Assembly: GCA_903820035.1 (NCBI GenBank)
Contig: CAIJFT010000241.1
Coordinates: 1-64,000, forward strand
DNA length: 64,000 bases
From: an uncultured Opitutia bacterium
Lineage (GTDB): Bacteria; Verrucomicrobiota; Verrucomicrobiia; Opitutales; Opitutaceae
Direction: 5' to 3'
In this document: positions 38,523 through 53,210 of the stretch, piece after piece
Numbering within the stretch: the stretch's first letter is position 1
Layout of the letters: each line of letters starts with the position of its first letter
Position numbers and translations under genes: made by a program
Notes under the pieces: model-generated
What the model was told of the DNA's origin: nothing
What the model saw: only the letters and a program-made list of their open reading frames with translations
Databases searched by the model: none

Positions 38523-41315
38523 TCAGGTCACCTGTCGCAGGGCCGCGTGCAATTCGTCGATCGAAAAGGGTTTCGAAAGCCGCAGGACATTCGCCACGGG
38601 CGCCTTGTCCGCCGGATCGAAACGGCTGTGGTCGCCGCTCATCAAGATCACCGGCAAATCAGGGCGCTGCGCCCGCATGTCGGCGATCAGCTCCCAACCG
38701 GTGCGCCCCGGCATCGCCAAATCAACGAGCGCCAGCGCAAACGACGAAGGATCCGCGGCGAACCGTTCGCTCGCAGCCGTGCCATCGACGCAAACCTCCA
38801 CCGTAAACCCGGCCCGGCGCAGAACCACCTCCGCAACCATTCGCACCGGGCGTTCGTCGTCCGCCACCAACACCCGACGCCCCGAGCCCGCCGTGACCAG
38901 CGCGGAAGCCGGAGCCGCGGGCACATTCTGCGCGGCTGGTGCCAGCGGCAGGAAAACTTCAAACGTACTGCCGCGGCCCGGCGTACTCGTCACCTGGATC
39001 CTGCCGCCATGCTCCTGCACGATGCCGTAAACGATCGAAAGCCCGAGCCCGGTTCCCTCCCCCGGAGCCTTCGTGCTGAAGAAGGGCTCAAAAATCCGCG
39101 ACCGCGTCGCCTCCTCCATGCCACAACCATCGTCGACCACGGTCAGTCGCGCGTGCGGCCCGACCGCACACCCGTCCGATTCCACGGGGCACCGTTCGAC
39201 CCGCTCGAGCGCAACGGTGATTTTACCCTGCCGCAGGCCGATCGCCTGCGCGGCATTCACGCCTAGGTTCATCAGCAGCAGCTGCACCTGCGCGGCATCG
39301 GCCATGACCGGCCCAACCTCTGCGGGTAGTTCGGCGCGGATCTGAATCGTCGCCGGCTGCGTCGCGCGCAAGAGCGAGAGGGTGTCGCTCACCAGTTGCC
39401 GCAGATGAAGCGGCTGGCGCACCGTATCACTCCCCTTGCGGGCGAAAATCAACAAGCGCCGCACCAGATCGCGGGAACGGAGTCCGCCCTCGCGGGCACC
39501 GCGAAGATACTCCGCCGCCTCGTGGCCCGGCGGCACGGCCCGCAACGCGAGATCAATCAAACCCAACATCCCCGCGAGGATGTTGTTGAAATCATGGGCG
39601 ATGCCGCCCGCCAGCGTACCGACGGTCTCAAGGCGCTGCGACTGGGCCAGGCGAATTTCCAGCTCGCGCTGCTTTGCCTCCGCCTCCTTTTGCGCGGTGA
39701 TGTCACGGTGCATCCCCACGGCCCGCACCGGCAGACCCGCGCTGTCCCGCACCAAGTAGCCGTTGGCCTCGATTGTCCGGACCGCTCCGTCGCTCAGGCG
39801 CACGATCCGGTACTCGCAGTAGTCGAGCGGCGTGCCATTCAAGATCTGCTGGAAATCACCGACCGCCCGGGCCAAGTCGTCGGGATGCAGTCGGGCGCGT
39901 AACGCCTCGAGCGTCCCCGGCCATTGCGCCGGCTTCACGCCAAAGATTTCAAATAGCACCTCGTCCCACTGCAGCCGCCCGCTCGACAAATCGAATTCCC
40001 AAATCCCACGGCGTGAAATCCGGAGCACCCTTTGGAGTCGGCTGGTCAGGTCACGGAGTTCCAACTCCCTCCGCTGCAGCGGCGTCACATCCTCATTGAT
40101 CCCGGTCACCCACTCCGGCCGGCCGACCGCATCCAATTGGACCATACCGACCGAACGGAGCTGCCGAATCGAACCGTCGGAGCGAACGATCCGATAGGTG
40201 TATTCAAAGCTGCGCATGCCCGCCTGCAGCGCCTGGAAATTATCCTTCACCTTCTGCCGGTCTTCCGGGTGCACCCACCGCGAAAAATGAAAATGGTCAC
40301 TCTCCACCTCCGCCCGTCCCAGACCGTAGATTTCGAGCATGCGGTCGTCCCAGTTCCGCCGGCGCGTCTCGATGTGGTAGTCCCACACGCCCATCTGGGA
40401 CGCCTCGAGGGCCAACTGCAGCCGCTGAGCCGTCACCTGCGCCCGGTGCTCCACTTCATGGAGCGCGTGCTCATCCTGCGTCGTGCCCACCATCATCGCA
40501 GGCTGGCCGTCGGGCCGCCGCTGGCTGACGCGACCGACATGCCGGACCCAACGCCACGCGCCATCCGCCGCGCGCATGCGGTGCTCGCACGTCCATTTTT
40601 CGGACCGCCCCGCCAACGCGTCGTTGAGCGCCTTCTGCACCGCGGGACGGTCCTCGGGGTGCGTTCGATCCAGCCAGTCCAGGCCGTTGATTTCGGCCAG
40701 TTGCGCCAGCGCATAACCCAAAATGCACGGCTGCCCACCGGCATTGATGGAAAAATGCCCGTCGGCCATCCGCCACTCCCACCAGACAATCCGGGAAGCG
40801 GCCATCGCAGACCGGAGCTGTTCGTGGACCCGGTGGTGCTCGGATTCCGTTTCTCGCCGCGCCTGCTCCGCCCGGTTCCGCTCACTCAGGTCGCGGATCG
40901 CCCCAATCCGCGCAGGCCGACCAATCACCGTACCCGAGGCTTCCGCCGGCCCGCGAAACTGCCAACTCAAGGTTTCCCCGCCGAGGCTCGTTACCCGCAG
41001 CTCACTCGCCAGCGCCGGCCCGCCCGGCCGCATCAGGACGATTTCCCCGCAAAACGAACCGTGCCGCGCGCCGTCTGCCGCCGCCGCCAACCCGCTCCCG
41101 GCGGCATCGAGCATCCAATCCCCCAGCTCACTTCCGACAAGGCCGCCCGCCTCCCGCCCAAGGAGCCGTTCGGCCGCCGGATTGGCCGCCAGAATCCGCC
41201 GGACCCCCGACGTCACCAGCACGGCATCGGGATTCGCAGCAAAGAGCGCGCGGAAGAGATCGTCGGCGCCAGCCGGCAAAATTGTCTCACGGCCTACAGG
41301 GTTGGTCGAATCCAT
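38523..41315 (-). CDS. multi-PAS hybrid histidine kinase with C-terminal receiver
   Basis: 930 residues, no membrane helix, so probably a soluble cytoplasmic sensor. Four PAS/PAC units: about 15-145 (LFAANPDAVLVTSG, ends IRDLSERNRAE), 165-285 (WWEWRMADGHFSINAGG), 300-415 (GVWDYHIETRRRNWDDRM, ends NEDVTPLQ) and 430-545 (GIWEFDLSSGRLQW, ends RDITAQKEAE). Next comes HisKA with His574 (GGIAHDFNNILAG), HATPase (NLGVNAAQAI, DDGCGMEE, GTGLGLSIVYGIVQEHGG) and a receiver with Asp865 (ALVDLAMPG). The GGIAHDFNN type kinase with a fused receiver usually passes phosphate onward through a relay, but no phosphotransfer protein is encoded nearby. It converges on the Cache kinase gene. Confidence 0.92.
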   Translation of the reverse strand: MDSTNPVGRETILPAGADDLFRALFAANPDAVLVTSGVRRILAANPAAERLLGREAGGLVGSELGDWMLDAAGSGLAAAADGARHGSFCGEIVLMRPGGPALASELRVTSLGGETLSWQFRGPAEASGTVIGRPARIGAIRDLSERNRAEQARRETESEHHRVHEQLRSAMAASRIVWWEWRMADGHFSINAGGQPCILGYALAQLAEINGLDWLDRTHPEDRPAVQKALNDALAGRSEKWTCEHRMRAADGAWRWVRHVGRVSQRRPDGQPAMMVGTTQDEHALHEVEHRAQVTAQRLQLALEASQMGVWDYHIETRRRNWDDRMLEIYGLGRAEVESDHFHFSRWVHPEDRQKVKDNFQALQAGMRSFEYTYRIVRSDGSIRQLRSVGMVQLDAVGRPEWVTGINEDVTPLQRRELELRDLTSRLQRVLRISRRGIWEFDLSSGRLQWDEVLFEIFGVKPAQWPGTLEALRARLHPDDLARAVGDFQQILNGTPLDYCEYRIVRLSDGAVRTIEANGYLVRDSAGLPVRAVGMHRDITAQKEAEAKQRELEIRLAQSQRLETVGTLAGGIAHDFNNILAGMLGLIDLALRAVPPGHEAAEYLRGAREGGLRSRDLVRRLLIFARKGSDTVRQPLHLRQLVSDTLSLLRATQPATIQIRAELPAEVGPVMADAAQVQLLLMNLGVNAAQAIGLRQGKITVALERVERCPVESDGCAVGPHARLTVVDDGCGMEEATRSRIFEPFFSTKAPGEGTGLGLSIVYGIVQEHGGRIQVTSTPGRGSTFEVFLPLAPAAQNVPAAPASALVTAGSGRRVLVADDERPVRMVAEVVLRRAGFTVEVCVDGTAASERFAADPSSFALALVDLAMPGRTGWELIADMRAQRPDLPVILMSGDHSRFDPADKAPVANVLRLSKPFSIDELHAALRQVT

Positions 41316-42326: not shown

Positions 42327-43340
42327 ATGCCTCAGCCCGTCCGCCTTCACCTGCTCTTCGGTTTGCTCGCGCAGCTGCCCTTCGCGGCGGCCGCGGCCGA
42401 TTATGATTTCTTCGTCTGCGCCAACCTCAACCGCAACTACGTCATCGGGTCCAAGATCGTCACAACAAACGGCGTCTACCAACGTGACGCCGCCGGCACT
42501 TGGGCGCACCTCGGCTACAACGACACGGGGATCAGCGCGGTCGCGTTCGATCCGCGCGATCACCACGTGATCTACACCTCCGCCCTGAACGGTCTCTGGC
42601 GCAGCCTCGACGGCGGCCGGCATTGGCGCATCTGCAACGACTGGAGCATGACCGAGGCCCGCGACGTCGCCGTGGACCCGAATGCCCCGGACCACGTTTA
42701 CCTCGCCCTGCCCGACGGCATCGCGGTCTCGACCGATCGCGCCCAAACCATCGCCCGCCGCGAAAACGGGCTCCCCGCCCGCGGCAAGTACACGCAGGTG
42801 CTCCAGGTCGACCGCACCCGCGCCGGCCGCGTCTTCGCCGGCTGCGAAGTCGGTGTCTTCCTCACCGAGGATGGAGCCGACCACTGGCGCCGCGTGCTAC
42901 CGACGCAGGAGACGGTGTACGATATCCAACAGTCGCCGCACGATCCGCGCCACTGGCTCGCCGCGACCCACGCCGCGGGCGCCTGGCGCTCGACCGACGG
43001 AGGCAACACCTGGGAGAAAATCACCACCGCGCCGTCGACCAATCCCCTGTACAACGTGACCTTCGACGTCACCGACCCGCAACGCCTTGCCCTCGGCAGT
43101 TGGGCCCTCGGGGTCTTCACCAGTGAAGACGGTGGCCGCACCTGGACCGACCGCAACGCCGGCCTGCCGGCCGCGCATCACGTGTGGCGCGTCGGCGTCG
43201 ATCCCGCCGGAAAACTCTATGCAAGCGTCGCGGCGGAAACGCTGTTTGTTTCCGGCGACTTCGGCCGCACCTGGCAGCCCGACGCCCTCGCCGGCTCGCA
43301 GGTGAACAAATTCCTCCTTCTCCCCCGCGCCGCGAAATGA
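42327..43340 (+). CDS. BNR/VPS10-like propeller glycosidase-type protein
   Basis: ATG at 42327 gives 337 residues with a signal peptide (LHLLFGLLAQLPFAAAA). The fold is a BNR-repeat propeller: LWRSLDGGRHWRI, VAVSTDRAQTIARR, VFLTEDGADHWRRV, AWRSTDGGNTWEKI, VFTSEDGGRTWTDR and LFVSGDFGRTWQPD. Six Asp-box-like turns are visible, one per blade. Related folds occur in sialidases, xyloglucan-active GH74 and sortilin. GH74 enzymes usually have two propellers and are twice as long, so this single-propeller protein is not an obvious member. The stop overlaps the ATG of the next gene (ATGA), so the two products probably act together. Confidence 0.82.
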   Translation: MPQPVRLHLLFGLLAQLPFAAAAADYDFFVCANLNRNYVIGSKIVTTNGVYQRDAAGTWAHLGYNDTGISAVAFDPRDHHVIYTSALNGLWRSLDGGRHWRICNDWSMTEARDVAVDPNAPDHVYLALPDGIAVSTDRAQTIARRENGLPARGKYTQVLQVDRTRAGRVFAGCEVGVFLTEDGADHWRRVLPTQETVYDIQQSPHDPRHWLAATHAAGAWRSTDGGNTWEKITTAPSTNPLYNVTFDVTDPQRLALGSWALGVFTSEDGGRTWTDRNAGLPAAHHVWRVGVDPAGKLYASVAAETLFVSGDFGRTWQPDALAGSQVNKFLLLPRAAK

Positions 43341-45244
43341 AACCGCGCTCCACCGCCATGACCCGCGTCCTTTTCGCCACCGCCCTCGCCCTCCTCACCG
43401 CGCTCTCCGGCACGGCCCAACCCTCGTTCGAAGCACCGCCGCCGTCGACCGCGCCGGTGCTCGATCCGGCGCAGCGCCGCGCCGACTACCTCCACCGCGT
43501 CGACGAAGTCCTCGACTGGGCGGCCGGCGGCGGTAGCGCGAAGACCGACGACCCCGCGAAGCTCGACCTCGCGATGATCGCCGCGCGCCTCGTGCGCGGT
43601 CGCGATCTCCCCGGCTGCTCGCAGCGCGTGATCGCCATGATGCAGGACCCGGGCACCGGTCCGTTCTGGATGTTTCCGAGCGTGTGCGTGGCCTACCTCG
43701 GCCGCGATCGGTTGAGCCCCGCCGCGCAGGCCGCGATCCGCACCGCCTGGCGGACGACGCGCCAGGCGCGCGGCGACACCGAAAACCATTTCGTGATGTA
43801 TTATATTTCCCTGTACCTGATGGCGGAGCTCTACCCCGACGAACCCGCCGAGACCTGGTACAGCGGCCGCTCGTCCGCGGAAAATTTGGCGGAGGCGCGC
43901 TCTTTCCTGATCCACTGGATGGACCTCACCACGACGGTCGGCCAGGGCGAGTTCAACCCCACCCACTACATCGGCGAATACGCGATCCCGCTGCTGTTTC
44001 TCGCCAGCTGGGCCAAGGACCCCGCCATGAAGGTGCGCGGCCGGCTGATGCTGGACTGGCTCTTTGCCGAACTCGCCGCCTCGACGCTCAACGGCGTGCT
44101 GCGCGGCCCCAACTCGCGCGTTGACGAGGGCTCCGTCATCGAACGCTGGCAGGCCATGGCGACGTATTTCAGCTGGCTCCTCTTCGGCAACGTGCCGCCC
44201 ACCGCCGGCTACAGCGGCTGGGGGCTCTACTTCGCCCCCGTCGCCCGGAACTACGAACTGCCCGAGGTCATCTACCGCATCGCGACGGACCGCCTCGGCG
44301 ACACGGTGCAGCGCGACCGCGCCCGGGTCCGCCGCTTCTGGCGCTACAGCGACGAAGACTCCCCGCCGGTTTACAAGACCAACTACCTCCGCAGGGACTA
44401 CGCCGTCGGCTCCACGCGCGGTGGCCGCATCGATCCCATCCAGTCCCACGTGTGGGACGTCACCTGGGCCGAAGCCGATCCCCGCGGAAAGCACAACACG
44501 CTGTTCTCCCTGCACCCGCACGCCGCCAGCGAGATCATCCAGGCCTCGTTCGTGTTCTACCCCGAACCGATGATCAAGGGCGTCACCTTCGAGGGAAAAC
44601 CGTCGTACGACTCCCCCGACAAGGTCATGGGCAGTTCGCCGTACGAGCAGGTGTTTCAGGATCTGGATACGGTCATCGCGCTTTACGACATCCCGCCCGG
44701 CACGCGCTTTCCGCACATCAACGGCTTCTTTGCCAAGGACCTCGCCGACGTGACGGAGGACAAGTCCGGCTGGATCTTCGCGCGCGCCGGCCGGGCCTTC
44801 CTCGCGTACCGCCCCCTCGCCGGCTACCATTGGGAGACCTACCGGCATTACTCGAGCGGCTGGGCCAAGGGCCCGGTCGAGCTGGGCGGCCGGCTCCTCA
44901 CCAGCCCCCACTTGAAGAATGGCACCATCGTCCAGGCCGCGAGCGCGGACGAATTCAAGGACTTCGCCGCCTTTCAGGCCGCCATCACCGCGCTGCCGCT
45001 GTCGTTCCGCCTCGATCCGGTGCCGACCGTGACGATGACCACGCTGCGGGGAAAGAAGGTGACAGCCACCTACGGCCAGACCCCGACGGTCGACGGCCAG
45101 CCACTTGATTATACCCGCTGGAAACTCTTCGAGGGCCCCTACCTCAACGCCGAGGTCGGAGGTCGCAAGCTGACCATCACCCACGGCCGGCTGGAGCGCA
45201 TACTCGATTTCAACACCCTCACGAGTACCGACCGCGTCCGGTAG
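43337..45244 (+). CDS. exported alpha-toroid protein, possible polysaccharide lyase, unassigned
   Basis: ATG at 43337 overlaps the previous stop; 635 residues with a signal peptide (MTRVLFATALALLTALSGTAQ). The first 350 residues are helical with regular hydrophobic spacing (YLHRVDEVLDWAAGG, AARLVRGRDLPGC, MYYISLYLMAELYP, YAIPLLFLASWAKDP, RGRLMLDWLFAELAASTLNG), like an (alpha/alpha) toroid. The rest is beta-rich (NTLFSLHPHAASEIIQASFVFYP, RAFLAYRPLAGYHWETYRHYSSG). This two-domain plan is that of heparinase- and alginate-lyase-like enzymes, but I do not recognise a family. FNPTHYIGEYAIP and LRGPNSRVDEGS hold candidate catalytic Asn, His, Tyr and Arg. Function is inferred from fold pattern and from coupling to the BNR propeller gene. 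Confidence 0.75.
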   Translation: MKPRSTAMTRVLFATALALLTALSGTAQPSFEAPPPSTAPVLDPAQRRADYLHRVDEVLDWAAGGGSAKTDDPAKLDLAMIAARLVRGRDLPGCSQRVIAMMQDPGTGPFWMFPSVCVAYLGRDRLSPAAQAAIRTAWRTTRQARGDTENHFVMYYISLYLMAELYPDEPAETWYSGRSSAENLAEARSFLIHWMDLTTTVGQGEFNPTHYIGEYAIPLLFLASWAKDPAMKVRGRLMLDWLFAELAASTLNGVLRGPNSRVDEGSVIERWQAMATYFSWLLFGNVPPTAGYSGWGLYFAPVARNYELPEVIYRIATDRLGDTVQRDRARVRRFWRYSDEDSPPVYKTNYLRRDYAVGSTRGGRIDPIQSHVWDVTWAEADPRGKHNTLFSLHPHAASEIIQASFVFYPEPMIKGVTFEGKPSYDSPDKVMGSSPYEQVFQDLDTVIALYDIPPGTRFPHINGFFAKDLADVTEDKSGWIFARAGRAFLAYRPLAGYHWETYRHYSSGWAKGPVELGGRLLTSPHLKNGTIVQAASADEFKDFAAFQAAITALPLSFRLDPVPTVTMTTLRGKKVTATYGQTPTVDGQPLDYTRWKLFEGPYLNAEVGGRKLTITHGRLERILDFNTLTSTDRVR

Positions 45245-45423: not shown

Positions 45424-47817
45424 ATGCCCCTCAACATTTTCACCCTTTGCTGGACCCTAGCCCTGTTCTTGGGGTGCGCAGCGGGACTCACCGTTCAGGG
45501 CGCCGAACCGCTGCGGATCGGCGTCGAGGCGAATGATGCGCCGCTCTCGTTTGTCGACGAGAAGGGCAAACCCGATGGATTTTCCGCAGCGCTGATCGGC
45601 GCCATGCAGAAGGAGGGTTTGGGCGAGGTCAAACTGGTCGCAAACTGGTGGACACCCCTGCTCGCACAGTTCCGCGCCGGAAACCTCGATGTGCTGACCA
45701 ACGTTTCGGTCATGGAGGAAACCCAGCGCGACATGGAATTCTCCATCTCGCACGTCTACCTCCACGGCGTGCTGTATACGGTGAAGGGCAGGCCGGAAAT
45801 CGTCGGCGTGTCCCAATTCTCCGGCAAGAAAATCGGCGCGGTCTACGGGAGCGTGGCCTTCAGCACCGCTACGGCCAACGCCGGTTGGGGCGGAAAACTG
45901 GTCGAATTTGATTCCCTGAAAGCGGCAGTCGACGGTCTGCGCAGCGGTGCGTGCGACGGGCTGCTGCAAGTTTACGCCTTCGATCGTAAATTTGCGCTCC
46001 TGCGGGCCCCGGACCTGAACCGGGAAGTCATGTGGGATATCATCCATCACCTCAGCTTTGCCGTGCACAAAGGCGACGCCGCCACGCTGGCGAAGCTCAA
46101 CGATGCGCTCGCCAACGTGATTCGCGCCGGAGAACTCGAGCGGATTTATCAACGTTGGATCGGATCCGCCGAAAACCGCCCGATCCGTCTGGTGGACCTG
46201 CGACCCTACGCCGTGGCGATCATCGCCGGCAGCCTGCTCATCGCCGGCATCATTCTCTGGCAGCGGCGGATGCTCTCCCGACTCGCCGAGCAGGCCAAAT
46301 CCCGCGAAGAGACCGAGCATTTGTTCGCGAGCGTCATCGACTCGGCTCTGGCCGGATGGGTCATTCACCGGAATGGCACCATCGTAATGGCCAACCCCGC
46401 CGCCGCGAATCTGGTCGGCTTGAAAGTCGAGAATCTCATCGACCACAACCTGCTCGAATTCATTGCACCGGAGTTCCGCGCGATAACCGCGGCTTCGGTC
46501 GCCGATCGCTCGGAACGGCCGATTGAAATGCTCGCGCTCCGCGCGGACGGCTCGACCGTTCCCATCGAAGTGGCGGGACGGAGCTGCGTGTTCCGCGCTC
46601 AACCCGCCCGCATCGTTTCCATTCGCGATCTCGCCGCCCAGAAGCAGGCGGCGGCGGACCAACTCGCGATCAGCAAACTCGAGTCCACCGCCATTCTCGC
46701 GGGCGGCATTGCGCACGACTTCAACAATTTCCTCGCCACGATCAGCCTGAATGTCGACCTGCTGCGCTCCACGCCTGGCATGCCGGAAGCGAGCCTGGAC
46801 CGGCTCCAAATCGCCAAGCACACCACCCAGTCCGCCAAGGCACTGATCGGTCAACTGGTGACGTTCTCGCGGGGCGATGCCAGCCACCCCGTAGCCACCA
46901 ATCTGACGAACCTGCTGTCCCGCTCCATCACGATTCCGTTGGCAGGCTCCAATGTCAGGGCGGATATCGATATAGCCGACGACCTCTGGGTCGCCACGGT
47001 GGATCCGGCCCAAATCGAGCGCGTCACGCACAACCTCGTGCTCAATGCCCGCGAGGCCATGCCGACCGGCGGCGTCATTCGCATCACCGCCCATAATGTC
47101 ACGGTCCAGAACGGCGAGATGCCCGGTCTCACTCCCGGCCCCTACGTGCTGATTGAAATCGCCGACCAAGGCACCGGGATCCCCGACGACGTACTTTCGA
47201 AGATCTTCGATCCCTATTTTTCCACCAAGCAGCGGGGCATGAAGAAAGGCATGGGGCTGGGCCTGACGATCTGCCTCCGTATTATCAAACAGCACGGCGG
47301 ATCCCTCGCGGTGCGCACCAAACCCGGCACCGGCAGCACGTTCATCATTCACCTGCCGGCTACCCCGGGGGCGGCTTCACCCGCTCCGCCCACGCTCCCC
47401 TTGATCGGAGCCGGGGGCAACACCCCGCCCGTCGCGGTGCGCCGCCGTATCTTGGTGATGGACGACGAGGAAATGCTCCTTGAGACGCTCGCCATGACGC
47501 TGCAACGGTTCGGGTATGACGTTGAAACCGCGCAGGACGGCATGACCGCCCTGGCGAAATGCATCCGCGCGCAGGACCAGCGTCAGCCCTTTCAGGCCGT
47601 GGTCCTAGACCTCACGGTTCGCGGCAGTATGGGCGGGCTGGAGGCCATGCAGGGTCTGCGCAAAATCGACCCGACGCTCCGCGCGGTGCTCATCAGTGGC
47701 CACGCCGAGCAGAGCGTTCTCCGCGAGCACACCCGCTTCGGCTTCGATGCGGCGCTGACCAAGCCGTTCGATTTCGAAGAGCTCCGCGACGTGCTGGCGA
47801 AGCTACTCCGCGACTGA
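45424..47817 (+). CDS. BvgS-like hybrid histidine kinase with periplasmic binding domain
   Basis: 797 residues with a signal peptide (IFTLCWTLALFLGCAAGLTVQGA). Residues of about 28-250 form an extracellular-solute-binding family 3 domain (LRIGVEANDAPLSFVDEKGKPDGFSAALIGAM, LLAQFRAGNLDVLTNVSVMEETQRDMEFSISH, ending IYQRWIG). One membrane helix follows (262-279), then a PAS domain (298-405, GWVIHRNGTIVMANPAAANLVG). Next are HisKA with His431 (GGIAHDFNNFLAT), HATPase (NLVLNAREAMPTGG, DQGTGIP, GMGLGLTICLRIIKQHGG) and a receiver with Asp729 (VVLDLTVRGSMGG). BvgS-type kinases sense a small molecule through the binding domain. No dedicated DNA-binding partner is adjacent. Confidence 0.92.
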   Translation: MPLNIFTLCWTLALFLGCAAGLTVQGAEPLRIGVEANDAPLSFVDEKGKPDGFSAALIGAMQKEGLGEVKLVANWWTPLLAQFRAGNLDVLTNVSVMEETQRDMEFSISHVYLHGVLYTVKGRPEIVGVSQFSGKKIGAVYGSVAFSTATANAGWGGKLVEFDSLKAAVDGLRSGACDGLLQVYAFDRKFALLRAPDLNREVMWDIIHHLSFAVHKGDAATLAKLNDALANVIRAGELERIYQRWIGSAENRPIRLVDLRPYAVAIIAGSLLIAGIILWQRRMLSRLAEQAKSREETEHLFASVIDSALAGWVIHRNGTIVMANPAAANLVGLKVENLIDHNLLEFIAPEFRAITAASVADRSERPIEMLALRADGSTVPIEVAGRSCVFRAQPARIVSIRDLAAQKQAAADQLAISKLESTAILAGGIAHDFNNFLATISLNVDLLRSTPGMPEASLDRLQIAKHTTQSAKALIGQLVTFSRGDASHPVATNLTNLLSRSITIPLAGSNVRADIDIADDLWVATVDPAQIERVTHNLVLNAREAMPTGGVIRITAHNVTVQNGEMPGLTPGPYVLIEIADQGTGIPDDVLSKIFDPYFSTKQRGMKKGMGLGLTICLRIIKQHGGSLAVRTKPGTGSTFIIHLPATPGAASPAPPTLPLIGAGGNTPPVAVRRRILVMDDEEMLLETLAMTLQRFGYDVETAQDGMTALAKCIRAQDQRQPFQAVVLDLTVRGSMGGLEAMQGLRKIDPTLRAVLISGHAEQSVLREHTRFGFDAALTKPFDFEELRDVLAKLLRD

Positions 47818-47905: not shown

Positions 47906-50383
47906 TCACCGCAGCCGCACGATCTCGCTGGCGACCGACTCAACGACAAGGGTGCGCAGGCCGTAGCCGTCTTTTTTCACGGCCTGAAGGATATCCTCGA
48001 TCACGAAGTCGTCCCCGGACGCCATGTGCCGGCCCGTGGCGTAACTCAGGAACTGCCGAATCAGGTGACGCGTGAACGCATCCGCCCGCTCCCCGTCGAG
48101 GATACGCTTGAAGTCCTGAAAATCGGCGTAGGTCGCTCCGGAACTGAACTCGCCGCTGGAATCCACCTTCGGCGCCGGTGCGCTGCCCTTCGGTTTGGGA
48201 TAGGTCGTGCGCCAACGGCCGATGGGATCGAACGACTCCAGCGCGAAACCAAGCGGATCAATCTTCCGGTGACATTCGGCGCAGGTCCGGTCGGCCCGGT
48301 GCTTGGCAAGCCGCTCGCGGACGGTGGTGGCGCCGGTCACGTCCGGCTCGATCAACGGCACCACGTCGGGCGGCGGCGGCGGCTTGAGCCCGAGAATATT
48401 TTCCATGACCCACACGCCGCGCGTCACCGGGGACGTCTCGACGCCGTTCGCACTGACCGTGAGCACCGCGCCCATCCCGAGCAGGCCGCCGCGCTGCCGG
48501 TTCCCCGCCAGCATCACCCGCTGAAACCCGTCGGCGAGCCGCAGCGTTTTTTGTTCGGGCAGGTTGTACAGTTTGGCGAGCCGCTTGTCGGCGAAGGTGT
48601 AATCGGCATCAATAAACTGCCGGACTGATCCGTTTTCCCGCAGCAGGTGCCGGAAGAAAAGCCGCGCCTCCGTCTTCATCGCCTCGGGTAAATTCTCGGC
48701 GTAATACACCCGGGTGGATTCCCGCGGCGGCGGCATTCCGCCGAGGTCGCGCAGGTTCAACCAACTCTCGAGGAAGCCATTGACGAAACCGCCGACCCGG
48801 TCGTCGGCGAGAAGCCGCAGGCTCTGCCGGCGAATTTCATCTGGACGGGATAACTTGCCGGCGGCGGCGAGAAGCGCTTGGTCCGGCGGGCCGGCCCACA
48901 GGGCATAGGAAAGACGCGAGGCGAGATCGTAGGGGGCGAGCTTGGCGTTCCTTTCGGAGGTGATCTCGCTAAAATAGAGGAACGAGGGCGAACACAGCAT
49001 CATCTTCACCGTATCGAGCGCAGCCTGACGCGGCGTCGCCTTGGCTTGAATCCGGCCCTCGTAGGTTTTCCGGATCCCCGCCCGATCGGCACGGGCCAGC
49101 GGCCGGCGATACGCGCGGGCGCCGAATGCGTAGAGCTGATCCAGCGCACGTTCCGCCTGGAACCCCTGCGCCCCGAAAACCGCCACCTCCTCCGCGCCGC
49201 CTCCCGGCTCCGGCACGGGGCCGGCCACCTTGATTTCGCTGATGCGGATGTGCGGGAGCTTCCCCTCCTTGAGGAGATGCGTGCGGCTCACGCCGGCATT
49301 GGCGAACCGGCCTTGAAAGTCCGCCTGATAGCGCTTGTTGACCTGGATCACGGACGCGCGGGACTCGTAGGGCCCGTTGGGAAAAATGAAACGCGGCGTC
49401 TGGCCGGCCTCGAGCCACACCCGGAACTTGAGCCACTCCGGTTTGTCATCGGGCACCGTCGCCTGGCCGAGGAGCGGCTCGATCGCCTGGGGGTAGTGGA
49501 TATGGTTTTTGGTCGCGTCCCCGGGGACGACCCCGAGCAAAAAGGGCTCGGTCAAATCGATGCCGAAAATCGTCGCGTCATAGTGCGTATCGCGGTGCAT
49601 CGCCTGGGCCAGCACCTCGATGTCATAGAGCCCGGACACAGGTACGCCCTTGAGAAAATCTTCGATGTGCCCGTATCCGCCCTGCCGCGTATCGGTGTTC
49701 GGCTGCTCGTACAGGCAGAGGTAACGGAAATCGAAGGCGGCCTTGTGCGGACCCTGCAACTCCTCGTACTGGACGAAATGCCCCTGGAAGTGCCAGGACT
49801 TCGGCTCCAGCGCCGGCCGACCCAAACGGGTTTCGACCAGACGGTTGGCGGATTGGAAATACTGATCCAGCAGGAAGCCCGACGTGACGAGCGACTTTCC
49901 GATCGTGTCGATGCGCTCGCTCGCCTTCTCCTTCGGAAAATCCGCGGTGAGGCCAAGGGTGTCGACCCGCCGGCCGAACAGCGTTGCGAGCGTATTTTCA
50001 TACTCCCGGTTCGAGAGCCGACGCATCAGGGTCTGCGCGGCGGTGCTCGCGATCTTCCCGCGCGCCGCCGCAATACCCTCACGGAGGACGCGGATGACGG
50101 CGAGGCGCTCGTCGTCGCTCGGTTGCGTTTCCTTCTTGGGCGGCATTTCCCGAAGGGTGAGCTGATCGACGATATCCTTGGCGGAAATCAGTTCCGCCTC
50201 GGTGGTGAGTGGCAGCTTGAGCAGCTCCAGGTCACGGTCGCCTTTCTGAATGACCGTGTCGTGGCACTTCAGGCAGTACTGGTCGAGGAAGGGAAAGATA
50301 TCCGGATGCGCACGCGACTCCGCGCCGCGGGCAACCACCGCGAGCAACAGAAAGACCGCCCAAGAGGATCGTCGTAGAGTCAT
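47906..50383 (-). CDS. DUF1592-type planctomycete cytochrome protein
   Basis: ATG at 50383 gives 825 residues with a signal peptide (SSWAVFLLLAVVARGAE). An N-terminal heme site CLKCH (Cys37-His41) is followed by DUF1587 (RRLSNREYENTLATLFG). A carbohydrate-binding-like beta domain sits in the middle (VSGLYDIEVLAQAM). DUF1595 (LYAFGARAYRRPLARADRAGI), DUF1592 (SPSFLYFSE, DLASRLSYALWAGPPDQALL, FVNGFLESWLNLRDLG), DUF1588 (RGGLLGMGAVLTVSANGVETSPVTRGVWVMENILGLKPPPPPDVVP, then CAECHRKIDPLGFALESFD with a second CxxCH near 701) and DUF1585 (HLIRQFLSYATGR) complete the family order. The product is exported and probably diheme. The DUF1552 gene lies upstream on the same strand, the usual partner. Confidence 0.93.
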   Translation of the reverse strand: MTLRRSSWAVFLLLAVVARGAESRAHPDIFPFLDQYCLKCHDTVIQKGDRDLELLKLPLTTEAELISAKDIVDQLTLREMPPKKETQPSDDERLAVIRVLREGIAAARGKIASTAAQTLMRRLSNREYENTLATLFGRRVDTLGLTADFPKEKASERIDTIGKSLVTSGFLLDQYFQSANRLVETRLGRPALEPKSWHFQGHFVQYEELQGPHKAAFDFRYLCLYEQPNTDTRQGGYGHIEDFLKGVPVSGLYDIEVLAQAMHRDTHYDATIFGIDLTEPFLLGVVPGDATKNHIHYPQAIEPLLGQATVPDDKPEWLKFRVWLEAGQTPRFIFPNGPYESRASVIQVNKRYQADFQGRFANAGVSRTHLLKEGKLPHIRISEIKVAGPVPEPGGGAEEVAVFGAQGFQAERALDQLYAFGARAYRRPLARADRAGIRKTYEGRIQAKATPRQAALDTVKMMLCSPSFLYFSEITSERNAKLAPYDLASRLSYALWAGPPDQALLAAAGKLSRPDEIRRQSLRLLADDRVGGFVNGFLESWLNLRDLGGMPPPRESTRVYYAENLPEAMKTEARLFFRHLLRENGSVRQFIDADYTFADKRLAKLYNLPEQKTLRLADGFQRVMLAGNRQRGGLLGMGAVLTVSANGVETSPVTRGVWVMENILGLKPPPPPDVVPLIEPDVTGATTVRERLAKHRADRTCAECHRKIDPLGFALESFDPIGRWRTTYPKPKGSAPAPKVDSSGEFSSGATYADFQDFKRILDGERADAFTRHLIRQFLSYATGRHMASGDDFVIEDILQAVKKDGYGLRTLVVESVASEIVRLR

Positions 50384-50546
50384 TTTCAGAGGTGTCACCT
50401 GGTCATCGAGCCATTCATGCCCATCAGCCTTGGCGGTCGGTTTGTCGGCCCGGCCGCCGGCCGGGCACCCGCCCACCGGGCGGGCCTACAGCAGAAGAAT
50501 CAAAATATGCCGGGATGTTGGTCTCGGTCCCTCACGCCGGCCCGCC

Positions 50547-51824
50547 TCACGCGAACCGACCGGTGCTCGTGCCGAACGCCGCGGTCTCAAGCCCCATCCG
50601 CTGGGCGATGTCGACGTAGAGATTGCAAAGCGGCACCTTATTCGGGCCGGAGGAAGGGACTTTCTTGAACTCGCCGTGCCGGTAACCGCCACCCGCGAGA
50701 ATGATCGGGAGATCGGAATTCTTGTGCGTGTTGGCGTCACCGATCCCGCTGCCGAATACCACGGAGGTCGAGTCGAGCAGCGTCCGGTCGCCGTCCGCCA
50801 GTTTGGACAGGCGCGAAAGGAACTTCCCGAAATGCTGGATCTGGTAGGTCTCGAGCGCGAGGAGGTGTTTGATGGCCGCCTCATCGTTACCGTGGTGCGA
50901 AAGCCCGTGGTACGACTTGTCGATGCCCAGGTCCTGCGGCAGGAAATCACCACCGATCTCCAGCGTGGCGATACGCGTGGAATCGGTCTGCAGCGCCAGC
51001 GCGATCAGTTCATAGAGAATCGGCAGATCCTCGACCTTGTTCTTGTTCTCCGGCCGGGCCAAGGGCGCCGTCGGCTTGGGCAGGCTCGCCCAACGCTGGC
51101 GCAGTTCGAGACGCTTCTCGACGTCGCGAATCGACGTGAAGTACTCGTCCAACTTGGCCTTGTCCTCGCGATTGACCTGCTTGGAAAGCCGGTTCGCATC
51201 CACCAGCACGGTATCGAGAATTGAAGCCTGCAGTTGGTTCTCCTGCTGGCGGCGATCGCGGCGATCCGGAGCGTCGTCGACAAAGAGCCGGTCAAACAAC
51301 TCGGCGGGACCCGAGATCGGCGGCACGCGCACGCCGGACTTGGTCCACGCGATCTGGCAGCCGCCGTGGATGCCGCCCTCCGAGCCGACCGTCAGCGACG
51401 GGAAGCGCGTCTGGTGGCCGATTTCGTCCGCCATGAACTGGTCGATCGAGACATTGCCGCCGGGCCGGTTCTGCGCTTCCGAATTGAGCACGCCGGTGAG
51501 AAAGGAGTGCACCGCGAAGTGACCGCCCTTGAGCCCATGGTCGAGCCCGCGGTAGACGGTCAGGTGTCGGCGATTGTCCCACAGCGGCTGCAGCAGCGTG
51601 GTCGGCTCATAGGCTCCGCCGGTGGAGACCGGGAAGAAATGCTTCACCTGATATCCCAGCAGGTTGCCGATCGCGACAAAACGCCGGGCCCCGACCCCCG
51701 CGCCTTTGGCCGTCTGGATCGCCGAGTTGCCGCCAACGGCGCCGACCAGAAGCGAGGGGAGCGAAGGGAGGGCTAACGATGCCCCGAGGGATTTCAGGAT
51801 AAAACGGCGCCGGTTCATGGACAT
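50547..51824 (-). CDS. DUF1552 domain-containing exported protein
   Basis: ATG at 51824 gives 425 residues with a twin-arginine-type signal (NRRRFILKSLGASLALPSLPSLLVG). The DUF1552 family landmarks are all present: RFVAIGNLLGYQVKHFFPV, LWDNRRHLTVYRGLDHGLKGGHFAVHSFLTG, NVSIDQFMADEIGHQTRFPSLTVG, DANRLSKQVNREDKAKLDEYFTSIRDVEKRLE, YHGLSHHGNDEAAIKHL, FGKFLSRLSKLADGDRTLLDSTSVVFGSGIGDANTHKNSDLPIILAGGG. It is the standing partner of DUF1592 cytochromes, as DUF1501 is of DUF1553 proteins. Gene order here is DUF1552 first, with a 163-nt gap to DUF1592. Tat export implies folding, possibly with cofactor, in the cytoplasm. Activity is unknown. Confidence 0.93.
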   Translation of the reverse strand: MSMNRRRFILKSLGASLALPSLPSLLVGAVGGNSAIQTAKGAGVGARRFVAIGNLLGYQVKHFFPVSTGGAYEPTTLLQPLWDNRRHLTVYRGLDHGLKGGHFAVHSFLTGVLNSEAQNRPGGNVSIDQFMADEIGHQTRFPSLTVGSEGGIHGGCQIAWTKSGVRVPPISGPAELFDRLFVDDAPDRRDRRQQENQLQASILDTVLVDANRLSKQVNREDKAKLDEYFTSIRDVEKRLELRQRWASLPKPTAPLARPENKNKVEDLPILYELIALALQTDSTRIATLEIGGDFLPQDLGIDKSYHGLSHHGNDEAAIKHLLALETYQIQHFGKFLSRLSKLADGDRTLLDSTSVVFGSGIGDANTHKNSDLPIILAGGGYRHGEFKKVPSSGPNKVPLCNLYVDIAQRMGLETAAFGTSTGRFA

Positions 51825-52058
51825 GGGGAGGTGGGGTGCGAGGGGTGCGTCGACTCCAAGCTGGGACACGGTGCGCGGCGAGGAAAAAGCCGCGGAAGCG
51901 GGACCACCGAGCGTAAACAGGAAGGTCGCGGAGAACGGAGCGCTGCACCCGCCCGCTTACCGACCTTAACGGCCTTCCTCTTCCCCGTCTTCGTTCCGTG
52001 GTTGCAGGCGTGGATCCCGCGGCCGTTGCTTGGCGGCATCAGAACCACTCCGCTCGTC

Positions 52059-53210
52059 ATGAAAAGACTCCTCGCGCTCCTCCTGCTGGGCGCCTCCGCC
52101 GTGTTATCGCCGGCTCAATCCCCGCGCCCGGCGCCGATGCCCCTCCTGCCCCTTACGCAAAACGGCGGCACCTGGCCCACCAGCCACGTGCAGGGCATCG
52201 CCGTCGACCTGCGGGGAGGCTACATCTACTACTCGTTCACCACGCTCCTCGCGAAGTACGACTTCAACGGCAAACTCATCGGCACCCTGGTTGGTTGGGC
52301 GGGCCACCTCGGGGATCTTGATTTCAACCCGCGGGACGGCCGGGTTTACGGCTCACTCGAATACAAGCACGACCGTGCGTTCTATATCGCGGTGATCGAC
52401 GTGAGCCGCCTCGACCGCGTCGGCCTCGAAGCCCAGTCGTCGGAGATTTTCCGCACCGTCTTTTTGCCCGAAGTGGCCGCTGATTACACGGCCGACCTCG
52501 ATGGCGACGGGGTGTTCGCCGGCGACACCGGCAAGACCGCCGATCACCGCTACGGCTGCTCGGGCATCGACGGCGTGAGTTTCGGCCCGCAGTTCGGCCG
52601 CACGGACGGCCCTCCCCTCCTCACGGTGGCGTACGGCATCTACGCCAACCTCGCGCGCAGCGACAACGATCACCAGGTCCTGCTCCAGTACGATATCGCC
52701 GACTGGGCCCGCTACGCCCGCGGCCTCACCGAAGCGGCCCCGCACCACAGCGGCCCGGCCGCGGTGCACGGCAAATATTTCGTCCGCACCGGCAACACGA
52801 CCTACGGCGTGCAGAACCTCGCCTATGACGAGGGACGGCAACGCTGGTTCATGGGCGTCTACAAGGGCACCAAGCCGGCGTATCCCAATTATACCCTCTT
52901 TGCCGTGGACGCCCGCACCGCCCCCGTCCGCGGTGATCTCATCGGCGTACCCGCGCCCGGCGGACGCGGCACCGAGCAGGGCCTCCTGTTGGCGCTGGCC
53001 GATGATGGTTTGAAGGATGCGAAGACCGGTATCCGCGGATGGAACCAGAAGGCCGACGTGGGCCTCCAGCCCGTCGGCCGCGGGCTGTTTTATTTCGCCG
53101 TCAACTCCGGCCCCCGGGGCGCACAAACCGGCGACCTCACCCTCCAACGCTGGACTGGAGCGCCGACCGCGCCGTTCACCCCGGCGACCAGCGCCGACCT
53201 CGGCAAATAA
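52059..53210 (+). CDS. exported propeller-like protein with calcium loop, hypothetical
   Basis: ATG at 52059 gives 383 residues with a signal peptide (MKRLLALLLLGASAVLSPAQ). The mature part opens with HVQGIAVDLRGGYIYYSFTTLLAKYDFNGKLIGTLVGW and HLGDLDFNPRDGRVYGSLEYK, like NHL or SMP-30-type propeller blades. The DLDGDGVFAGD segment is an EF-hand-like or dockerin-like Asp-rich loop that may bind calcium. Later blades include VQNLAYDEGRQRWFMGVYKG and LLLALADDGLKD. No enzymatic residues can be proposed and no named family is recognised. It diverges from the DUF1552 gene and converges on the TonB receptor gene. Confidence 0.8.
   Translation: MKRLLALLLLGASAVLSPAQSPRPAPMPLLPLTQNGGTWPTSHVQGIAVDLRGGYIYYSFTTLLAKYDFNGKLIGTLVGWAGHLGDLDFNPRDGRVYGSLEYKHDRAFYIAVIDVSRLDRVGLEAQSSEIFRTVFLPEVAADYTADLDGDGVFAGDTGKTADHRYGCSGIDGVSFGPQFGRTDGPPLLTVAYGIYANLARSDNDHQVLLQYDIADWARYARGLTEAAPHHSGPAAVHGKYFVRTGNTTYGVQNLAYDEGRQRWFMGVYKGTKPAYPNYTLFAVDARTAPVRGDLIGVPAPGGRGTEQGLLLALADDGLKDAKTGIRGWNQKADVGLQPVGRGLFYFAVNSGPRGAQTGDLTLQRWTGAPTAPFTPATSADLGK

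Follow-up and report, generated by a model that had tools for sequence, protein, structure and literature searches.

A candidate toroid-fold polysaccharide lyase and its closely linked propeller protein in an uncultured Opitutaceae bacterium

Two adjacent genes in a 64,000-nucleotide stretch of DNA from an uncultured Opitutia bacterium of the family Opitutaceae (contig CAIJFT010000241.1; the whole stretch is hereafter referred to as the window) raise the question of whether they encode a new polysaccharide-degrading protein pair, as a previous sequence-only reading of the window had proposed. We report that this candidacy stands, given the predicted fold class, the invariant residues in the motifs and the linkage of the two genes, here referred to as P1 and P2. 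In the reading that we favour, with reasonable though far from full confidence, P2 is a beta-eliminating polysaccharide lyase that constitutes a sequence family of its own within the toroid plus beta-sandwich superfamily, and P1 is its dedicated partner. P2 would then represent a widespread enzyme family, nameless in the libraries searched here, with a predicted active site and a ready partner protein.

The two open reading frames (ORFs) overlap by ATGA, as the sequence-only reading had seen (Table 1), while its title, which called them "translationally fused", was wrong: P1 and P2 are two separate proteins, probably coupled in translation. P2 likely starts at the overlapping ATG; an alternative in-frame ATG seven codons in fits a signal peptide equally well or better. 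Signal peptides were assessed by eye, also for the locus proteins discussed below, and both P1 and P2 are probably exported.

Table 1. Positions in the window of P1, P2, their overlap and the candidate active-site residues of P2.
Feature	Position	Strand	Basis and remarks
P1 gene	42327..43340	+	ORF and translation; 337 amino acids, probably exported single BNR/Asp-box propeller
P2 gene	43337..45244	+	ORF; 635 amino acids, probably exported; toroid followed by a beta domain, candidate glycan lyase
ATGA, P1 stop TGA shared with P2 start ATG	43337..43340	+	Sequence
N150-H151	43784..43789	+	Superfamily alignment and hhalign; candidate charge-neutralising Asn (51/51) and next His (47/51)
E205 to Y211 (EFNPTHY)	43949..43969	+	Both 51/51; Y211 candidate catalytic acid/base
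R261 in LRGPNSR	44117..44119	+	Invariant Arg (51/51)
H371	44447..44449	+	May be the catalytic His of the beta domain; conserved among type A members only

The linkage of the two genes is strict. Using >250 bits for a strong P1 match (the next best being 94.7) and >400 bits for a strong P2 match, 57 related genomes contain 25 strong P1 and 25 strong P2, which form 25 adjacent one-to-one pairs in the same 22 genomes, and the other 35 have neither. Conservation as neighbours, which the earlier reading had put forward as a check, hence holds in 25/25 cases both ways, and a frequent occurrence of the genes apart, which that reading had named as speaking against it, was not seen. Across 141 loci, P1 is located immediately upstream of 90 of the 94 non-redundant P2 frames of the clade to which P2 belongs (type A). 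The exceptions are a P2 in a tandem array with P1 downstream only (L136), a second tandem P2 having no P1 (L125) and two frames without flank. The sister clade (type B) has the reverse order, with P1 downstream in 11 of 12 rows, the remaining row being a piece of a broken copy at L136. Taken together, 102 of the 106 non-redundant P2 frames scoring >450 bits have a partner. An NTGA overlap is present in 54 of the 102 non-redundant adjacent pairs, and we therefore do not regard it as mere chance; it is found in 42/90 pairs with the order P1-P2 and in 12/12 with the order P2-P1 (11 of type B and the one at L136), such that the stop/start overlap is kept in 11/11 type B pairs despite the swapped order. 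Moreover, among 12 acidobacterial genomes, representing 12 of 14 loci, 11 contain a single strong P1 (454-515 bits, the next best scoring 110), which is at the P2 locus; the P2 of the twelfth is located at the end of a contig. The P1 and P2 distances also correlate (r 0.92, 100 pairs). Since the relatives are nearly always side by side P1 and P2 probably act together, and an adjacency and overlap that survive a swap of gene order would be hard to explain otherwise than by a joint function.

The AlphaFold model of P2, built with 30 relatives, has helices at residues 44-317 followed by a beta domain at 323-634 (mean predicted local distance difference test score, pLDDT, 85.4; predicted template-modelling score, pTM, 0.87). 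A Foldseek search against PDB yielded 22 matches at E<=0.001, each of them to a toroid polysaccharide lyase, namely BtPL33HA, GAGases, a chondroitinase, PL8 enzymes (xanthan, chondroitin AC and one alginate lyase), a PL17 enzyme, heparinase III and Dp0100; the next row, a mannosidase, has E 0.013. Using VIA we obtained 50 rows (Z 8.1-11.6), of which 49 are lyases and one is the uronate epimerase DS-epi1. For both structure listings, a family that is not listed there carries no information. On the basis of this model P2 is predicted to have the (alpha/alpha) toroid and antiparallel beta domain that define the toroid-lyase superfamily, in keeping with the heparinase/alginate-lyase plan suggested from the sequence.

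No established sequence family was recovered for P2. In Pfam, PF07940 included, P2 has no match at E<=1 and eight relatives have none above cut-off; NCBIfam gave no match at E<=1, and the 30-row P2 profile, run against PDB sequences up to E 10, returned only ribosomal protein L16 (E 0.54-1.6), with no detectable similarity to the solved members of PL12, PL15, PL17, PL21, PL33 and PL39. The claim that P2 lacks a family signature was thus borne out, and the strong match to a characterised non-lyase family that would have spoken against the proposal did not appear in the Pfam, NCBIfam and PDB searches. A literature search for this P1/P2 pair found nothing. We considered PL8, whose Asn, Tyr and RGxxSR-type Arg are similar, and rejected it (hhalign against Lyase_8_N proteins, Prob 0.2). 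The P2 sequence family with its near-obligate propeller partner therefore appears to have no counterpart in Pfam, NCBIfam or PDB, while the fold and the probable chemistry are of a known kind.

To locate a candidate active site we used two alignments, one with P2 and 29 relatives (A1; 30 rows, 47-83% identity to P2), within which many residues are fixed, and one covering 51 superfamily members (15 of the 30 A1 rows, all type A, seven of type B and 29 distant). In the latter only N150, E205, Y211 and R261 are unchanged in 51/51, and H151 (47/51), E149 (46/51) and G202 (49/51) are near-invariant. The two motifs singled out in the sequence-only reading, FNPTHYIGEYAIP and LRGPNSR, each contain one of the invariant residues (Y211 and R261, respectively), and N150 is a further invariant site absent from them. 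Comparing the 51-member alignment with 25 PF07940-type heparinase-like proteins using hhalign gave Prob 74.4 (P 2.7e-5, 146 columns), and Prob 79.2 (P 1.6e-5, 132 columns) with three different rows in the PF07940-type set; N150-H151 is paired with their N-H and Y211 with their conserved Tyr. Control profiles (PL8, GH127, rhamnosidase-like, pyridoxal phosphate (PLP) enzyme, M28 and reversed) gave Prob 0.0-0.3. With N150 and Y211, separated by 61 residues, P2 would share the toroid Asn and Tyr by which toroid lyases are characterised. Position 371 is His in 15/15 type A, Gln in 7/7 type B and His in 7/29 distant members, and because of the type B Gln we dropped H371 as a universal catalytic His.

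These data suggest the following route. P1 and P2 would be made together via the overlapping stop and start codons, exported, and act outside the cytoplasm on one chain, which would sit in the cleft between the P2 toroid and beta domain. N150 may neutralise the uronate carboxylate and Y211 may act as acid/base, with R261 and E205 shaping the site, and P2 would cleave at a uronic acid by beta-elimination. P1 would most likely bind, hold or present the chain, and it is possibly a stable subunit of a complex with P2.

Known lyases resemble P2 in part. PL33 (BtPL33HA, 8r6z) and the GAGase lyases 8khv and 8khw, which rank near the top of both the Foldseek and the VIA rows, share the toroid and the beta domain with P2 but have 8-12% identity and no sequence match. 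According to the excerpted text of PMC11848413 the PL33 catalytic residues are N238, Y291 and H444, i.e. Asn followed by Tyr as in P2 and with comparable spacing (53 vs 61), while His444 is without a universal P2 counterpart, and that text, unlike what we find for P2, describes no propeller partner. The PL40 ulvan lyase Uly1040, compared through its published description (excerpts of PMC12915356), is likewise a two-domain toroid, with Asn245, Trp246 (occasionally His), Tyr305 and His485 and an Asn-Tyr spacing of 60; it differs from P2 in being a 97 kDa protein, and it also has Asp358 and Mn. The heparinase II/III-like proteins (PF07940) resemble P2 over the 132-146 toroid columns, where N-H and Tyr are aligned, but P2 gives no Pfam match to them and the beta domains are unaligned. 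An additional toroid enzyme is an ulvan lyase of family PL37. This lyase founded a CAZy family and combines the toroid with a small beta-sandwich (PMC6168547, in the excerpted text).

Of the six Asp-box motifs in P1 one is degenerate, and the AlphaFold model of P1 (pLDDT 89.9, pTM 0.87) is a single propeller, in agreement with the compact six-Asp-box propeller read from the sequence. The top structural match is 7bid, a seven-bladed designed protein (Z 27.8 over 279 residues), and for this reason we take P1 to be seven-bladed. In the Pfam search that the earlier reading had called for, Sortilin-Vps10 and PSII_BNR scored above cut-off for P1. In fold, P1 comes closest to single halves of GH74 enzymes, to Ycf48 and to dispase autolysis-inducing protein (DAIP). 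GH74 enzymes have two tandem propellers with the active site between them; P1 resembles one of the two propellers of the xyloglucanases (Z about 25, 18-22% identity) but has only one, within 337 amino acids, which rules out GH74 membership and agrees with the remark that P1 is too short for a typical GH74. Ycf48 and DAIP, both of which are binding proteins, are single propellers similar in length to P1, but they share 14-19% identity with it and have unrelated partners. The top NCBIfam match, the F510_1955 family glycosylhydrolase NF045728 (E 3.5e-27), scores 95.2 bits, below its cut-off of 175.

Of 200 genomes from the window's family, 109 have P2-type matches of any strength, distant ones included (E<=0.001), as do 43 of 337 genomes sampled across its phylum. 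Named relatives come from Opitutaceae, from other verrucomicrobial metagenome-assembled genomes and, at 45-51% identity, from acidobacteria (Bryobacterales, Solibacter-type). Tandem arrays of two or three P1/P2 pairs are recurrent; in one of these (L136:5727-7558, +) a broken type A P2 is present as two consecutive pieces in different frames. The window pair is solitary, between histidine kinase genes and outside the conserved locus, and a paralogue in the same genome (contig C26, 55% identical) is inside it.

The conserved locus was studied in 20 loci chosen non-randomly for multiple copies or long contigs, with genes taken from a simple ORF picker and clusters named after one scanned representative each; some loci are one contig obtained via two collections, e.g. 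L046 and L123. The clusters include a class V PLP enzyme (17 loci), a rhamnosidase-like enzyme (16), LacI (12), GH127 (11), a RidA-like protein, M28 and DUF6807 (10 each), S51 (8), GH51 (7) and Gfo/Idh (5). Inspection of up to six N-termini per cluster revealed signal-like starts for the RidA-like, most PLP (Tat-like) and most M28 proteins, mixed starts for S51 and none for the GH127, GH51 and rhamnosidase-like proteins. Six acidobacterial loci encode, close to P1 and P2, a beta-barrel protein of the outer membrane (OMP_b-brl_4, from one scanned representative). Given that many relatives adjoin GH127, GH51, the rhamnosidase-like enzyme and peptidases, the substrate might, with low confidence, be an arabinose/rhamnose glycan that carries uronic acids and derives from algae or plants, possibly a glycoprotein. 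The neighbours of distant P2 members are also of glycan type (sulfatase, TonB plug, fucosidase, GH116 and glycoside phosphorylase).

The recurrence of signal-bearing PLP and RidA-like proteins alongside arabinosidases and peptidases points to a glycan pathway beyond known families. In a bolder and doubtful version, P1 and P2 could form an obligate two-protein toroid lyase that is active only with its propeller subunit, has persisted in two phyla despite a swap of gene order and, together with the peptidases and with the PLP and RidA-like proteins that have signal-like starts, serves a periplasmic pathway for an undescribed amino-acid-bearing glycan. If the partner is required, assays of such lyases as single genes would miss the activity.

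Several observations weigh against P2 as a lyase with P1 as its partner. The Foldseek superpositions are loose (template-modelling score 0.22-0.41, root-mean-square deviation 10-18 Å, 9-13% identity), and VIA Z values of 8-12 are middling by the tool's own scale for helical folds. The hhalign match reaches part of the toroid only, the narrow type A alignment (A1) gave Prob 21-24, and type B lacks the His of the beta domain. The correlation of P1 and P2 distances could be explained by shared ancestry alone. In the 15 stretches that contain the 22 distant frames of the superfamily, a P1-like frame (E<=1e-5) is absent throughout, and the toroid fold in general is therefore independent of P1; one "distant" row beside P1 (L084) is a type A copy truncated at the stretch end. 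Finally, GH88 and GH105 are found in none of the 20 loci, which is unexpected for a plain uronate lyase, and are absent from 6 of the 20 genomes, including the window's own. In view of the lacking GH88 partner, epimerase or other lyase chemistry has to be reckoned with, and P2 could epimerise uronate at C5, or be a lyase that acts on an oxidised or amino-substituted sugar, as the structural match to DS-epimerase 1 (6hzn, Z 10.0), the signal-bearing PLP and RidA-like proteins and the Gfo/Idh oxidoreductase in 5/20 loci would also allow; we consider this quite unlikely since the top Foldseek matches are lyases throughout and the neighbouring genes may serve other steps. It is likewise unlikely, if less strongly so, that P2 belongs to an existing CAZy family beyond the reach of Pfam, NCBIfam and PDB, and that the pair is already described under a different enzyme name. 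Toroid lyases of which few members are solved do exist in CAZy, e.g. the ulvan lyase (excerpts of PMC6168547) and PL40 (excerpts of PMC12915356), but P2 had no match in Pfam at E<=1, the eight relatives had none above cut-off there, and the NCBIfam and 30-row PDB profile searches were negative.

The role of P1 is open to two other explanations. P1 may be a second enzyme in its own right, either a lyase or a hydrolase of propeller fold, that cleaves the next linkage after P2, in a two-step cascade without a complex. Propeller lyases do exist, in the seven-bladed families PL24 and PL25 (PMC12915356, in part). Consistent with a cascade, P1 has 32 residues that are invariant across 28 sequences, several of these outside the Asp boxes (T109, Y125, Q202 and S203), and the order of the two genes can be swapped. 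However, a strong P1 without P2 occurs in 0 of the 57 genomes and the best fold matches of P1 are GH74 single halves and the binding proteins Ycf48 and DAIP, and hence we judge the cascade to be rather unlikely. Alternatively, P1 could help P2 to assemble or fold without taking part in catalysis, much as Ycf48 serves photosystem II, a role with which the Ycf48 structures among the fold matches, the tight co-occurrence and the overlap would agree; it is improbable considering that P1 scores far below the cut-off of the NCBIfam Ycf48 model PRK13684 (27.2 vs 326 bits) and that P1-like neighbours are lacking for the 22 distant P2-like frames.

Some further features were observed in the loci and in the window. 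In L125, L130, L131, L132, L133 and L134 the RidA-like protein, with its signal-like peptide, is near the class V PLP enzyme, which often has a Tat-like start and resembles SufS/PvdN distantly, below cut-off; such a pairing of putatively exported PLP and RidA proteins next to P1 and P2 is unusual. A distant P2 paralogue in the window genome (L167:8193-9587 and L167:9241-11877, -) lies beside ThuA and DUF7133-cytochrome genes, in a context unlike that of the pair. In the window, the pair is flanked by hybrid histidine kinases at 38523-41315 (-) and 45424-47817 (+), the latter having a solute-binding SBP_bac_3 domain at its N-terminus. Further downstream, an ORF of 459 amino acids at 51831-53210 (+) has no Pfam match at E<=1e-4, and at 47906-51869 (-) a DUF1592/1588/1585/1587/1595 protein adjoins a DUF1552 protein, a planctomycete-type pair. 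At L177:6572-18001 (+), a distant P2-like protein is followed by five mutually similar genes, of which the one scanned matches Pfam Sulfatase.

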